Assembly: GCA_937981765.1 (NCBI GenBank)
Contig: CALJOM010000001.1
Coordinates: 29,778-93,777 of the forward strand
DNA length: 64,000 nt
Reading direction: 5' to 3'
DNA from: an uncultured Bacteroidales bacterium
Lineage (GTDB): Bacteria > Bacteroidota > Bacteroidia > Bacteroidales > Salinivirgaceae
Program-made: the position numbers and the translations under genes
The notes under the pieces: generated by a model
What the model saw: the letters and a program-made list of their open reading frames with translations, nothing else
The model's database searches: none
Told to the model about the DNA's origin: nothing
Shown: one piece after another, positions 8,191 through 13,916 of the stretch
How positions within the stretch are numbered: position 1 is the first letter of the stretch
Layout of the letters: each line of letters opens with the position of its first letter

Positions 8191-8229
8191 GCCGGGGACA
8201 AGGATTATCCCTGGCTCCTTTTGTTTTTT
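8191..8229 (+). terminator. clpB terminator
   Basis: GCCGGGGA pairs with TCCCTGGC (one wobble) around a 9-nt loop and is followed by TCCTTTTGTTTTTT. It overlaps the end of the convergent SiaC-like gene by two bases. Confidence 0.75.
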
Positions 8230-8602
8230 ATAACGGCTCAACTGAAATATCAATTTTGATAATTTCCTTGTAACGATTACCGGCAGCTTCCATATCTCTG
8301 TCGCCGGTTTTATAGTTCCATATTACTTTTACTTTGCTTCGCTCACTTAGTTTTTCAAGCAAAAACATCAGTTTAGTAAGTTGCTTAGCTGTGCTTGTTG
8401 AGTAGTATTCCAGATTGAATCGAAAAATTGTTTCTGGATTCGGATCGTCAATATATAAATTCATCCACTCAAAAACTGTGTTGAAAAAGCCCACGGCGTC
8501 TTCCGGCAAACTTTTTTGCGAAATTTCAAAAATTCCTTTAGATGGGTCGAGAATAACCCGTGGAGAATCTTCTGTTTCTTCAATAAATAGTGGATAGAGC
8601 AT
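8228..8602 (-). CDS. SiaC-family regulatory phosphoprotein (DUF1987), second copy
   Basis: This 124-residue protein belongs to the DUF1987/SiaC family. In Pseudomonas aeruginosa, SiaC is phosphorylated on a conserved Thr by the kinase SiaB and, in its unphosphorylated form, binds and activates the diguanylate cyclase SiaD. The core motif FRFNLEYYSTSTAKQL (residues 60-75) is present; Thr69 aligns with the phospho-acceptor Thr68 of the neighbouring copy. It sits 14 nt downstream of that first SiaC-like gene and is last in the cluster siaB(tandem)-siaC-siaC. The two copies are clearly diverged in sequence, so they probably have different partners or kinase-domain preferences. No diguanylate cyclase is encoded nearby. 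Confidence 0.82.
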   Translation of the reverse strand: MLYPLFIEETEDSPRVILDPSKGIFEISQKSLPEDAVGFFNTVFEWMNLYIDDPNPETIFRFNLEYYSTSTAKQLTKLMFLLEKLSERSKVKVIWNYKTGDRDMEAAGNRYKEIIKIDISVEPL

Positions 8603-8616
8603 AGTTCGTTAGAATT

Positions 8617-9021
8617 TTAGTTAATAATAATCTCAAAGTTATCGTCGTCCACAGCCGGTAGGGGAACAAGCGAAAATTCCAAACCGGTAAGTTTTTCAAA
8701 ACGTTTTCCATTTTCCAACATATCCACATCGTCGTGATGATAACACCACACAATTCTGACTTTCGACTGTAGTTCCTTTAGGAATATGAATAATTTCGAT
8801 AGTTGTTTCGATGAGGCTGTATTGTAATATTCGAGCTCGAATCGGAAAACGGTTTCTTGTTTGGGCTTTTTTGCGTATTCCTGGAGCCAATCGAATACGG
8901 GTTTATAAAAATCGAAGGCATCTTCCGGTAACGACCGGCCAGCTATTAGAAATTCGGGTAAATCTTCGTCGAGCAAAATCTTGGGGCAATCTTCTTTTCC
9001 GTTGTAGGTAAAGGGTTTCAT
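8617..9021 (-). CDS. SiaC-family regulatory phosphoprotein (DUF1987), first copy
   Basis: This is a 134-residue DUF1987/SiaC-like protein. The family motif FRFELEYYNTASSKQL covers residues 59-74. Thr68 is in the position of the phosphorylated Thr of Pseudomonas SiaC, which switches partner binding. The start ATG overlaps the stop of the upstream kinase gene in an ATGA arrangement (9018-9021), so translation of kinase and substrate is probably coupled. A short acidic tail (residues about 124-134) distinguishes it from the second copy. The role as substrate of the adjacent kinase is inferred from family and overlap; the output partner is unknown. Confidence 0.85.
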   Translation of the reverse strand: MKPFTYNGKEDCPKILLDEDLPEFLIAGRSLPEDAFDFYKPVFDWLQEYAKKPKQETVFRFELEYYNTASSKQLSKLFIFLKELQSKVRIVWCYHHDDVDMLENGKRFEKLTGLEFSLVPLPAVDDDNFEIIIN

Positions 9022-10145
9022 AGGTTGGTGCTATCAACTATCACTTTTAAGGTAAAGAATAATTTGTTTGTGTCAACCGGATAAAAATCGTACTGCAATA
9101 AGTTGTTTGATTTCATCCGTAATTCAATTAGGCCTAATCCGGATTCTTTGGAATTATCAATTTGGAAGTCGAAAAGACATTGGTTGTAGTAGTCGTTTAA
9201 CTCCTTGATACTTAAACTATTTACGTGTTCTATTTTTCGAATAAGCGGCTCTTTCTCCTGTTGATCGATATAGTTACCTGAGTTCAGAATGTATTGATTG
9301 TTAGCTTTATTGATGAAAAAGACACCTTGGCTTCCATCTTTGTCGGTGGATTTAACAGCGTGTTTAACAATGTTTTGCAACATTTCAACCATTAAGTTAA
9401 ACACCACGCGTTTTAGTCGGCCAAGGCCGGCCATCTGATTTTCAATAATATTGAGGAGATTGATAAGACTTTCCTGGTTAAACAATCCGTTGAATATGAT
9501 TTGTACCCCGTTTTGTTTTAAAAGTTGGTGGAGAAGGTAAACATTATCCATCTGAACCAGATCGGTATCATCAAAGGATTCGCCTTCATCTTGCGGGGTA
9601 ATGCAGGTATGGAAGTAAAAATAGCTATACTCGTCGTTGATGCGATGGAAATGGTAAGATACTTTGTTGTTCGATTTTCTAGCTATTTCAATAAGGCCTA
9701 ATCCAGCACCACCTTTTTCCGAAATTTCATTTTCTAACAATACCGATTTGTAATAAATTTTTAGCTCCTCCGGGGTTAGACTTTTTATCTTTTTTAAAAG
9801 ACTTTCTACATGACTGATATTTTTGTTGTATATCAGGTTAACAGTTGTTACAAAGTAATTTCCATCTTTCTGTTCGATAGCAAAGAATCCATGATATTCA
9901 TCGGTGGTATCCTGGTGACGTGTAATATTTTGCAGACTTTCTACCATAATGGAGAAAACCCGCTTTTTAATTTTTGCGGATTCTCCCGAACGATTCATGT
10001 TTATTTCGGCAAGGAGTATAATAAGATCCGTAATTTTTTGTGTGAAGAGCCCATGATAAACGTAGCTCAGATCAGCGCTTCTGAAGCTGTCGTATAATTC
10101 AAAGGCCAGGCCTTTGGGGTAGGATTCATCGTTCGACATGCCCAT
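9018..10145 (-). CDS. Tandem-domain SiaB-type protein kinase (two DUF6272 domains fused)
   Basis: This 375-residue protein is made of two successive SiaB-type (GHKL-fold) kinase domains, about 1-190 and 195-375. Each half repeats the same landmarks: YVYHGLFTQ versus IIFNGLFNQ, then an N-box with VESLQNITRH (Asn73) versus VEMLQNIVKH (Asn258), then a G-box with GAGLGLIE (146-153) versus SGLGLIE (335-341), each followed by a KSNN motif. SiaB proteins are normally single-domain, about 180 residues. In Pseudomonas, SiaB phosphorylates SiaC. The frame continues upstream to 10211 overlapping dapF, but ATG 10145 (or 10139) matches the start of the first domain. Two SiaC-like genes follow, the first overlapping by 4 nt. 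dapF lies 37 nt upstream and may share the transcript. Confidence 0.8.
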   Translation of the reverse strand: MGMSNDESYPKGLAFELYDSFRSADLSYVYHGLFTQKITDLIILLAEINMNRSGESAKIKKRVFSIMVESLQNITRHQDTTDEYHGFFAIEQKDGNYFVTTVNLIYNKNISHVESLLKKIKSLTPEELKIYYKSVLLENEISEKGGAGLGLIEIARKSNNKVSYHFHRINDEYSYFYFHTCITPQDEGESFDDTDLVQMDNVYLLHQLLKQNGVQIIFNGLFNQESLINLLNIIENQMAGLGRLKRVVFNLMVEMLQNIVKHAVKSTDKDGSQGVFFINKANNQYILNSGNYIDQQEKEPLIRKIEHVNSLSIKELNDYYNQCLFDFQIDNSKESGLGLIELRMKSNNLLQYDFYPVDTNKLFFTLKVIVDSTNL

Positions 10146-10182: not shown

Positions 10183-10983
10183 CTAAAACCCAAAATTTGG
10201 ATCAAAATCAATCTCCCCGTAGAAAACTTTTCTAGCCTCTCCGGAAAGGTAAATGTTGGTAATCATATTGTTAGTTGGTTCAAACGAAACTTGCAGCCGA
10301 CCACCTTTAGCAATTACCTCAACCGGTATAGCGTTGATTTTTTTGGTAACAACCGATGTTATTGCGGCTGCTACAGAACCTGTTCCACAAGCCAATGTTT
10401 CGTTTTCCACACCTCGTTCGTAAGTTCGGATTAGTATGGTTTGATTTTCAATCTGGCAAAAATTAACGTTTACTCCATGGGGAGATATCTCTTTGTTGTA
10501 ACGCAATTCTGTCCCCAGAAGATTTACATTGATTGTAGAAACATCGTCGGTAAATACCACCAAATGTGGTGAGCCTGTATCGATCATATAATGGTTCGGA
10601 AAGATTTGTACAGGGATTTGTGCATTACTCATTTTCAGTTTTACAAAACTGTCGGATACAATTGTTGCTTCATGCAATCCATCAATGGCTGAAAATAAGG
10701 TGCTTTCCCCAATTATTCCGAGATGGTAGGCAAGCATAACTATACACCGACCTCCATTGCCGCACATGGTGGATTCACGTCCATCGCTGTTGAAATATCG
10801 CATAAAGAAGTCGCTGTTTGGGCTATTTTCAAGCATAATTAATCCATCTGCCCCTATGCCAAAATGGCGGTTACAGAGAAATCGTATTTGCTCTGTCGTA
10901 AGTTTTGAGGCTGTACCGGTGCGATTGTCGAGCATGATAAAATCGTTACCGGCTCCTTGATATTTCCAAAAATCCAATTTCAT
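10183..10983 (-). CDS. dapF: Diaminopimelate epimerase
   Basis: This 266-residue PLP-independent epimerase converts LL- to meso-diaminopimelate for lysine and peptidoglycan synthesis. The two catalytic cysteines of the thiol acid/base pair are visible: Cys74 in MCGNGGRC and Cys199 in ACGTGS. The N-terminal GAGNDFIMLD motif and GADGLI loop are typical. Length matches the family. It is the first gene of a minus-strand group followed by the SiaB/SiaC-type cluster; the pairing with that cluster may be incidental. A 233-nt divergent region separates it from the DegP-type gene. Confidence 0.96.
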   Translation of the reverse strand: MKLDFWKYQGAGNDFIMLDNRTGTASKLTTEQIRFLCNRHFGIGADGLIMLENSPNSDFFMRYFNSDGRESTMCGNGGRCIVMLAYHLGIIGESTLFSAIDGLHEATIVSDSFVKLKMSNAQIPVQIFPNHYMIDTGSPHLVVFTDDVSTINVNLLGTELRYNKEISPHGVNVNFCQIENQTILIRTYERGVENETLACGTGSVAAAITSVVTKKINAIPVEVIAKGGRLQVSFEPTNNMITNIYLSGEARKVFYGEIDFDPNFGF

Positions 10984-11216
10984 AGTTGCAATAAATTATC
11001 CGCAAAATAACAAATATTTTTCTGGTTTGGAATAAAAGACTAAATAGGTATTCCCCAAAAGGTGTTTTTTATTTATCTGACAAAACGAGCTGAATATTAC
11101 CAAGATACCTGCCATCTTTTCTGTTTTTGTTAAAATATGGTTAAATTTTTGATCTACAAACAACATTTCACACCATTTGTAAGTAATAAGATGAGTACCC
11201 CTAAAACAAATGAACT

Positions 11217-12689
11217 ATGAACTCACGGATGAAAACATTAGCCACTTCATTTATTTCAGGCCTTGTAGGAGGTTTAATGATAGTTTTGATTTATAGTTAC
11301 TTATTGAAGAATAATTCGCCAACTCCAAACGGGGCCGGGTTTGGAAATAAAAATCCTGCAACGACACAAATTTTTTCAACCGGTAATGGTTCTCGAGTTG
11401 TTTATGGCACTCCGGTTGATTTAACCGAAGCTGCTCAAAAATCTGTCGATGCAGTAGTGCACGTAAAAACACTTAGTCGGACACAATCAATAGGTTCCGG
11501 TAATCCATTTTTCGATTTTTTCTTTGGCGATCCCAGAGGCATGAACATCCCTCCTCTGGTTGGAACCGGGTCGGGGGTAATAATCACTTCCGACGGATAT
11601 ATCGTAACCAATAACCACGTGATTGAAAATGCCGACAAGATTGAGGTAACTCTCAATGACAGAAGAGTATATGAAGCATCGGTGATTGGTGCAGATCCTG
11701 GAACTGATATCGCGTTATTAAAAATCAACGACACTGAGCTTCCATTTCTTCCCTTTGGCAATTCCGATTCAACCAGGGTTGGTGAGTGGGTATTGGCTGT
11801 AGGGAATCCTTTCAATCTGACATCCACGGTTACTGCCGGTATTATATCGGCTAAAGCCAGAAACATAAACATTTTAAATCGCCGCTATGCCATTGAGTCG
11901 TTTATTCAAACCGACGCGGCCGTTAATCCCGGTAATAGTGGTGGGGCTTTGGTTAACAGCCGCGGCGAACTGATTGGAATAAACACTGCCATTGCCTCTC
12001 AGACAGGTTCGTTCACAGGATATTCTTTTGCTGTCCCCATAAGCATTGTTGCCAAGGTTGTTTCCGATTTAATCGAGTTTGGTGAGGTACAACGGGCTTT
12101 TTTAGGGGTAGTGATTAGCGATATTAATCGACAGCTTATTGAGCAGTATAAACTGGCAGTTCGCGACGGTGTGCTTATTCAGCAGGTAGAGAGCGGTAGC
12201 CCGGCACAAATTGCTGGAATTGAGCCAGGAGACGTAATTACCCACATTGGAACGGTTCGGGTACGCTCGGTAGCAGAATTTCAGGCCCATATGATACGTT
12301 TCCGCCCAGGTGATGTTGTTGTCTTCACCATTAACCGTCAGGGGAAAGTTTCGGAACGTTCTACAACTTTACATAACCGTTTTGGAACAACGGCATCGAT
12401 TAGGCGTACCGACGTTGTAGCATTGTTAGGAGCGTATTTTAGACCGGTTGCCCCTAGCGTAGCCAAAACATTAGGAATCCGAAGCGGATTACAAGTGGTT
12501 GAAATTGAGCAGGGGAAATTGCTAAAGGCCGGTGTTCAGAGGGGATTTATTATCACCTTCGTAAATGGAGAGCCGATTACTGATATCGAAAGTTTGAGTA
12601 AAGCACTGCAAAAAGCCAACAATGGTGGTGTTTATGTAGAGGGAATTTATCCCAATGGCATGCGTGCCTACTATGCGTTTGCTCTGTAG
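11217..12689 (+). CDS. DegP/HtrA-type periplasmic serine protease with two PDZ domains
   Basis: This is a 490-residue S1C-family protease with an N-terminal signal-anchor (about 5-30). It degrades or refolds damaged envelope proteins. The catalytic triad is His134 in NNHVIENAD, Asp164 in GTDIALLK and Ser241 in NPGNSGGAL. PDZ1 spans about 290-385 and PDZ2 about 400-490. The second PDZ is the less canonical one but retains the GLQVVEIEQGKLLKAGVQ core. An in-frame Met at 11229 is an alternative start that keeps the hydrophobic segment. rpoD follows 366 nt later. No stress-sigma promoter could be identified. Confidence 0.93.
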   Translation: MNSRMKTLATSFISGLVGGLMIVLIYSYLLKNNSPTPNGAGFGNKNPATTQIFSTGNGSRVVYGTPVDLTEAAQKSVDAVVHVKTLSRTQSIGSGNPFFDFFFGDPRGMNIPPLVGTGSGVIITSDGYIVTNNHVIENADKIEVTLNDRRVYEASVIGADPGTDIALLKINDTELPFLPFGNSDSTRVGEWVLAVGNPFNLTSTVTAGIISAKARNINILNRRYAIESFIQTDAAVNPGNSGGALVNSRGELIGINTAIASQTGSFTGYSFAVPISIVAKVVSDLIEFGEVQRAFLGVVISDINRQLIEQYKLAVRDGVLIQQVESGSPAQIAGIEPGDVITHIGTVRVRSVAEFQAHMIRFRPGDVVVFTINRQGKVSERSTTLHNRFGTTASIRRTDVVALLGAYFRPVAPSVAKTLGIRSGLQVVEIEQGKLLKAGVQRGFIITFVNGEPITDIESLSKALQKANNGGVYVEGIYPNGMRAYYAFAL

Positions 12690-13055: not shown

Positions 13056-13916
13056 ATGAGACAACTTAAGATCACAAAATCAATCACAAATCGTGAGAGT
13101 GCTTCGCTTGATAAGTATTTACAGGAAATTGGCAAAGAAGAACTTATCACCGTTGAAGAAGAAGTGGAGTTAGCGCAGCGCATTCATAAGGGCGATGACG
13201 CAGCATTGGAGCGACTGACCAAAGCAAATTTGCGTTTTGTGGTATCGGTTGCCAAGCAGTATCAAAATCAGGGCTTAAGCCTCCCAGACCTAATCAATGA
13301 AGGGAATATGGGGTTAATTAAGGCTGCCCGTAAATTTGATGAAACCCGTGGTTTTAAGTTTATTTCTTATGCTGTATGGTGGATTCGTCAATCTATTTTA
13401 CAGGCATTAGCTGAACAATCACGTATTGTTCGTTTGCCCCTCAATCAGGTTGGCTCGTTAAATAAAATTAACAAGGCATATGCAAAATTTGAACAAGAAA
13501 ACGAACGCCCCCCGACACCTGAAGAATTAGCCGAATTACTTGATCTCCCCAAAGACAAAGTGGTTGACACACTTAGAGTTTCCGGCCGTCATGTATCCAT
13601 GGATGCTCCTTTGGGTGAGAGCGAAGATAACTGCTTGCTCGACGTAATTGAAAACACCGACAGTCCGGAAGCGGATCGCACTTTGATGAAGGAATCACTC
13701 AGCCGTGAAATTGAGCGTGCTTTAGCTACTCTAACCGAGCGAGAAAGAGATATTATTCGCCTCCATTTTGGAATATCGTGTCAGGAGATGACTCTTGAAG
13801 AGGTTGGCGAAAAGTTTGGATTAACCCGTGAACGGGTGCGTCAGATAAAAGAGAAGGCCATTCGCCGGTTACGACATACATCGAGAAGCCGATTGCTCAA
13901 AGCTTATTTAGGATAA
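13056..13916 (+). CDS. rpoD: Primary RNA polymerase sigma factor (RpoD/SigA, Bacteroidota short form)
   Basis: This 286-residue group 1 sigma-70 factor directs RNA polymerase to housekeeping promoters. Region 1.1 is absent, as is normal in Bacteroidota. Region 1.2 ([14 protein letters not shown]) starts near residue 20. Region 2 follows with [37 protein letters not shown] and WWIRQSI. Region 3 contains [13 protein letters not shown]. Region 4 ends with [20 protein letters not shown]. It is the probable reader of the TTTG/TAnnTTTG promoters found throughout this window. A strong terminator follows directly. Confidence 0.97.

Follow-up and report, generated by a model that had tools for sequence, protein, structure and literature searches.

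A tandem, asymmetric SiaB-family kinase adjoining SiaC proteins in Bacteroidales, with an output other than c-di-GMP

Partner switches of a kinase and its small substrate have been described in Bacillus (SpoIIAB/SpoIIAA and RsbW/RsbV) and, as part of the SiaABCD system, in Pseudomonas aeruginosa. In the dimers of the kinases RsbW and SpoIIAB, the beta1 strands of the subunits are joined into one sheet (PMC7340262). The P. aeruginosa SiaC protein is phosphorylated at the position of Thr68 of the protein called SiaC1 below (PMC7647112). SiaC proteins are widespread, and the only published SiaC output found in our literature search was a diguanylate cyclase; the same search turned up no papers about SiaB-like, SiaC-like, or DUF6272 proteins outside the Pseudomonas system.

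In the present study, we analyzed a stretch of 64,000 nucleotides (hereafter, the window) from an uncultured bacterium of the family Salinivirgaceae, order Bacteroidales, in which a gene for two fused SiaB-type domains is followed by two SiaC-type genes. We then examined the corresponding genes in related genomes. The tandem SiaB/SiaC design is spread through the Bacteroidales, and its output is not c-di-GMP. We consider it likely that the locus encodes a SiaABC-type partner switch with a covalently dimerised, asymmetric tandem kinase, and that the second SiaC is a later duplicate.

The locus, its protein families, and their folds

The genes for the kinase, SiaC1, and SiaC2 are all on the minus strand (Table 1). 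The original prediction, which was made from the window sequence, had placed two SiaC-type genes directly after the kinase, the first with an ATGA overlap, and both the coordinates and the profile matches agree with it. PF19788 matched the kinase twice (8e-66; 220.2 bits, curated cut-off 26.6), as did NF038262 (SiaB_fam_kinase; 1.8e-73; 245.8 bits, curated cut-off 85). PF09345 (SiaC; curated cut-off 24.5 bits) matched SiaC1 (3e-32; 111.2 bits) and SiaC2 (2.1e-29; 102.1 bits).

Table 1. Positions of the features discussed (window numbering, or our own genome and locus handles; G000 is the window genome)
Feature	Position	Strand	Remarks
Tandem SiaB-family kinase	10145..9018	-	375 aa; ATG at 10145, TGA at 9018
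Half 1 of kinase	9582..10109	-	about aa 13-188; N-box E69..N73; canonical-type
Half 2 of kinase	9021..9560	-	about aa 196-375; N-box E254..N258; diverged
SiaC1	9021..8617	-	134 aa; start overlaps kinase stop by ATGA
SiaC2	8602..8228	-	124 aa; 14 bp after SiaC1
dapF-like gene	10183..10983	-	directly upstream of kinase, 37 bp gap (ORF position)
Channel-like protein in relatives	L104:8046-10040; L142, L146, L154, L158, L160, L168, L169, L172, L180
Channel homologue, window genome	G000:C4:114350-116263 (L213, L215:5348-7345)
Single SiaB and class III cyclase, window genome	G000:C5:99859 onward; L114:4827-9371
Tandem SiaB-SiaC fusion and class III cyclase	L091:2067-5303
TPR-SpoIIE phosphatase, window genome	G000:C1:27537-28148; L123:6535-9033		832 aa
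[FeFe]-hydrogenase-like + PAS + SpoIIE protein	L142:1783-5724		1313 aa

In its AlphaFold2 model (pLDDT 85), the kinase consists of two GHKL halves; among the matches listed were SpoIIAB for half 1 (Z 9.5) and P. aeruginosa SiaB (6kko) for half 2 (Z 15.2). It is half 1, together with the profile match, that places the kinase in the SiaB family; half 2 by itself lacks the complete GxGxG lid. The model of SiaC1 (pLDDT 93) agrees with P. aeruginosa SiaC (7e6g/6kko/6kkp) at TM 0.82-0.84 and 1.4-1.7 A, and its second helix (residues 68-82) begins at Thr68. As modelled, SiaC1 has the STAS-like SiaC fold with a Thr at the start of helix 2; SiaC2, which is 43% identical to SiaC1 (BLASTP 49/114), is predicted from its sequence to have the same fold. 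The alignment with Pseudomonas SiaC also agrees with the earlier placement of the predicted phosphosite at Thr68 of SiaC1 and Thr69 of SiaC2, and this residue is Thr or Ser in 121/121 related SiaC proteins (Thr in 103 and Ser in 18). The assignment of the locus to the SiaB/SiaC partner switches is well supported.

The upstream gene, presumably dapF as judged from its sequence, is probably on the same transcript as the tandem kinase and is no part of the switch. Of 13 relative loci with a dapF homologue, 12 have it upstream in the same orientation. The order of dapF on the kinase strand and a divergent DegP-like gene (10183-12689 in the window) is repeated in relatives; clpB comes next after the tandem locus in the window genome. 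Promoter and terminator scans gave results no better than those with shuffled sequences. A mobile element was rejected as an explanation, as there was no phage match and the plasmid matches cover stretches of single-SiaB length.

Unequal halves of an old fusion

The original prediction had assigned an N-box and a G-box to each of the two SiaB domains. The N-boxes are both present: Asn73 and Asn258 are, as predicted, the two N-box Asn residues, the predicted catalytic Glu residues are Glu69 and Glu254, and the Glu and Asn are invariant in half 1 (45/45) and in half 2 (45/45). The G-box was confirmed in half 1 but not in half 2. The ATP lid of half 1 in the window is K144-G-G-A-G-L-G150, and that of half 2 is K333-E-S-G-L-G338 (KESGLGL), which is not GxGxG. 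A GxGxG lid of the GGAGLG type occurs in half 1 of 45/45 tandem kinases, and 21 of 23 single SiaB proteins have a GxGxG lid; in half 2, GxGxG is found in 6/45 and GxG in 43/45. Nearly all members lack S-x-K-G-x-G-A and A-R-K around the lid of half 2. The mean pairwise identity is 47% for half 1 versus 38% for half 2, and the identity to stand-alone SiaB is 32% versus 27%. The two halves are unequal: half 1 is like a stand-alone SiaB protein, and half 2 is less so. In the genus of the window, the TGN motif of half 1 contains Val102, where most of the others have Gly.

This asymmetry is long-standing and lineage-wide. We collected 106 distinct related tandem genes, mostly from Bacteroidales; this number rules out an assembly or frame error as the origin of the fusion. 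The hits of a genome scan were in metagenome assemblies of Bacteroidales, Salinivirgaceae, and other Bacteroidota. The tandem gene was found in 6/6 genomes of the family and in 36/149 genomes of the order, and outside the order in 1 of about 294 genomes of the phylum at a strict limit of E <= 1e-45. In a kinase tree of 45 tandems and 23 single SiaB proteins, half 1 and half 2 each formed one clade (support 0.958 and 0.89, respectively); the sequences thus point to a single, old SiaB-SiaB fusion. The design is expanded further at four loci (L094, L095, L110, and L153), where one tandem SiaB gene follows another, for a total of four SiaB domains.

The halves might still be equivalent in function, so that the protein is a covalent homodimer, each of its two sites phosphorylates either of the SiaC proteins, and the fusion only fixes the dimer. 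The N-box E/Q/N/H and the TGN-type Asn are present in both halves, and half 2 retains a SiaB-like fold, as expected for such a protein; we nevertheless regard it as unlikely, because nearly all members have lost the surroundings of the half 2 lid, whereas half 1 has kept its lid in every member. This does not mean that half 2 is inactive. Active SpoIIAB also lacks the first Gly of the lid, and the SGLGL lid of half 2 resembles it; as the catalytic Glu and Asn are kept as well, half 2 may be a full kinase.

In the asymmetric kinase that we favor, half 1 would be the standard catalytic half, which phosphorylates Thr68 and Thr69 of the SiaC proteins, and half 2, with its altered ATP lid, would be an asymmetric partner that is nucleotide-binding or regulatory and perhaps still catalytic. 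The two halves would pack as a built-in pseudo-dimer, like the separate subunits in RsbW and SpoIIAB; by analogy with these kinases, the tandem would hold such a dimer together within a single polypeptide. Some two-domain platforms with one sheet matched the tandem model over aa 22-374 at low Z, in weak agreement with a pseudo-dimer. With its unequal halves, the protein lends itself to tests of GHKL kinase dimer function.

One kinase and one or two SiaC proteins

Two kinase halves with two SiaC proteins had been read in the original prediction as a match that could mean dedicated pairs or cross-talk, and a search of genomes for tandem SiaB occurring together with paired SiaC had been proposed. 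The search spoke against a designed match. One SiaC gene is the commonest arrangement (64 of the 106 tandems); 18 tandems are fused to one SiaC, 16 have none within 900 bp, and only eight have two. These eight are all close relatives, namely the family of the window and its near neighbours. Their SiaC2 genes group in a single clade (0.89) within the tandem-associated SiaC genes, so the tandem kinase came first and SiaC2 is a late duplicate. Only four kinase residues, two per half, are both fixed in and specific to the two-SiaC group. The SiaC counts, the SiaC2 clade, and the fixed residues together rule out two-to-two pairing as the origin of the layout; the two-by-two match appears to be secondary and looks like a coincidence of gene duplication.

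Dedicated pairs could in principle have formed afterwards, with half 1 phosphorylating one SiaC and half 2 the other, as two insulated channels in one protein. Such pairs would agree with the Glu and Asn kept in both halves of 45/45 tandems and with the two SiaC proteins, each with the conserved Thr, in 8/8 close relatives. Yet 98 of the 106 tandems do without two SiaC proteins (18 being fused to a single one), SiaC2 arose after the fusion, and the four fixed residues amount to no burst of change in either half of the two-SiaC group, which makes dedicated pairs distinctly improbable. Since all eight SiaC2 orthologues have kept the phosphosite Thr, the duplicate itself looks functional. We infer that SiaC2 is a later duplicate of SiaC1 and that one kinase probably feeds two outputs, rather than one target per half.

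The 18 natural fusions consist of tandem SiaB and a C-terminal SiaC (502-519 aa, with one shorter ORF). At the level of gene structure, they provide a Rosetta-stone link between the kinase and SiaC.

The window genome contains five SiaB-like genes, one of them the tandem, and ten SiaC genes. It also has a single-domain SpoIIE-SiaB-SiaC operon with the normal layout, like SiaA-SiaB-SiaC, followed by an ABC transporter gene. Five of the ten SiaC genes have no adjoining SiaB, and one of these five adjoins a sigma-54-type response regulator (L120).

Phosphatases, outputs, and comparison with known systems

It had been noted beforehand that neither a diguanylate cyclase nor a SiaA phosphatase is nearby. 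This is correct for the window, and for GGDEF proteins it extends to the whole genome; as to phosphatases, the window contains none of the SiaA type, but the window genome encodes 16 SpoIIE phosphatases elsewhere, and such genes adjoin the locus in sister species. The absent neighbour can therefore be ruled out as a true loss of the phosphorylation cycle. The nearest is a TPR-SpoIIE phosphatase (Table 1), at a distance of about 10 kb from the tandem locus and 1.6 kb beyond the left end of the window. The SiaC end of the locus in sister genomes faces one or two convergent SpoIIE genes, mostly no more than 35 bp away, and several of their products have propeller, PAS, or TPR parts. A convergent SpoIIE gene lies within 1 kb at 15 of the 106 loci, versus about 0.45 expected from the density of SpoIIE genes (1298 in 152 Mb); some of these 15 loci are related to one another, and the actual events are therefore fewer. 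SpoIIE genes anywhere within 8 kb (22/106) are only mildly above the background, so that the enrichment lies in the convergent neighbours at up to 1 kb. Proteins of the window genome are up to 40% identical to the 1243-aa neighbouring phosphatase of a sister over the phosphatase domain, and none is a clear orthologue of it; the lineage of the window seems to have lost or moved the adjacent phosphatases. Sensor-fused SpoIIE phosphatases, encoded elsewhere in the window genome and next door in sister species, would remove the phosphate from SiaC. At one locus in a relative, the [FeFe]-hydrogenase-like protein with PAS and SpoIIE parts (Table 1) is encoded directly upstream of a tandem SiaB-SiaC fusion; it might serve the switch as a phosphatase that senses H2 or redox state.

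Unphosphorylated SiaC would then bind an output protein other than a diguanylate cyclase. No GGDEF protein was found in the window genome (92% complete) by a search that found GGDEF in 8/14 controls, and GGDEF is absent from 39/40 tandem-bearing genomes, the remaining one having a single GGDEF protein. The earlier reading, in which the targets of a tandem SiaB-type kinase are SiaC proteins, agrees with the family profiles, and a c-di-GMP output is ruled out in this clade. Because this order-wide branch is rich in SiaB, SiaC, and SpoIIE genes but nearly devoid of GGDEF proteins, its output must differ from c-di-GMP.

Gene order in relatives suggests candidates. At 10 of the 18 tandem SiaB-SiaC fusions, a channel-like protein of about 660 aa is encoded downstream on the same strand; it combines a long N-terminal region that is repeat-like with a two-helix ion-channel domain (Ion_trans_2) and a TIGYGD filter. 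A homologue in the window genome is 40% identical over nearly the full length and does not adjoin any Sia gene. In the same genome, a single SiaB gene directly precedes that of a Reg_prop/Y_Y_Y/PAS class III adenylate/guanylate cyclase. SiaB and the start of a homologous cyclase protein were found in 6/6 genomes of the family, the cyclase domain having been read in the window genome only. At another locus, the gene that comes after a tandem SiaB-SiaC fusion, in the same orientation, encodes a class III cyclase with a receiver domain. As leads from gene order, both the K+ channel and class III cyclases are thus candidate SiaC outputs in relatives. A bolder proposal seems doubtful at present, namely that Bacteroidales evolved a one-chain, asymmetric kinase whose half 2 acts as a pseudokinase-like sensor or clamp, and that SiaC was rewired to control ion channels and class III cyclases instead of c-di-GMP synthesis; if true, it would mean a SiaC-controlled output in c-di-GMP-free Bacteroidales. 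With the K+ channel and the cyclase as neighbours of natural kinase-substrate fusions, the output can be tested directly.

An anti-sigma switch, with a sigma factor held by the tandem kinase and SiaC as its antagonist, as in RsbW/RsbV, is very unlikely: the folds of both proteins are similar to those of SpoIIAB/RsbW and SpoIIAA/RsbV, and sigma-70-type genes, at 22 loci, rank second among the neighbour clusters, but the one in the window (13056-13916), which we take to be a primary and not an alternative sigma factor, is about 3 kb off across dapF and the DegP-like gene, and the operon contains no alternative sigma gene. Moreover, Pseudomonas SiaC acts on an enzyme (PMC8457831).

Among the known systems, the slr1658/slr1659 regulators of cyanobacteria (NF047703 and NF047705) show a weak likeness to the kinase (9.5e-12) and SiaC1 (0.062), with scores far under the cut-off (44.7 of 100 and 13.6 of 100, respectively). 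Like SpoIIAB/SpoIIAA and RsbW/RsbV of Bacillus, the present locus would combine a GHKL Ser/Thr kinase dimer with a STAS-type substrate, opposed by PP2C/SpoIIE phosphatases. The Bacillus kinases are two separate identical chains that hold a sigma factor, whereas the kinase here is one chain with unequal halves, and no alternative sigma factor was found. Unlike SiaABCD of P. aeruginosa, the locus encodes a kinase made of two fused, asymmetric SiaB domains and a pair of SiaC proteins, its operon lacks a SiaA phosphatase, and the genome lacks SiaD or any GGDEF protein; the equivalog cut-offs are also missed, by SiaB (105.3 of 225 bits) and by the two SiaC proteins (57.7 and 56.2 of 150). Like SiaABCD, it has a SiaB-family GHKL kinase adjoining its putative SiaC substrate, a predicted phosphosite of the Thr68 type where helix 2 begins, and folds that match 6kko, 6kkp, and 7e6g.
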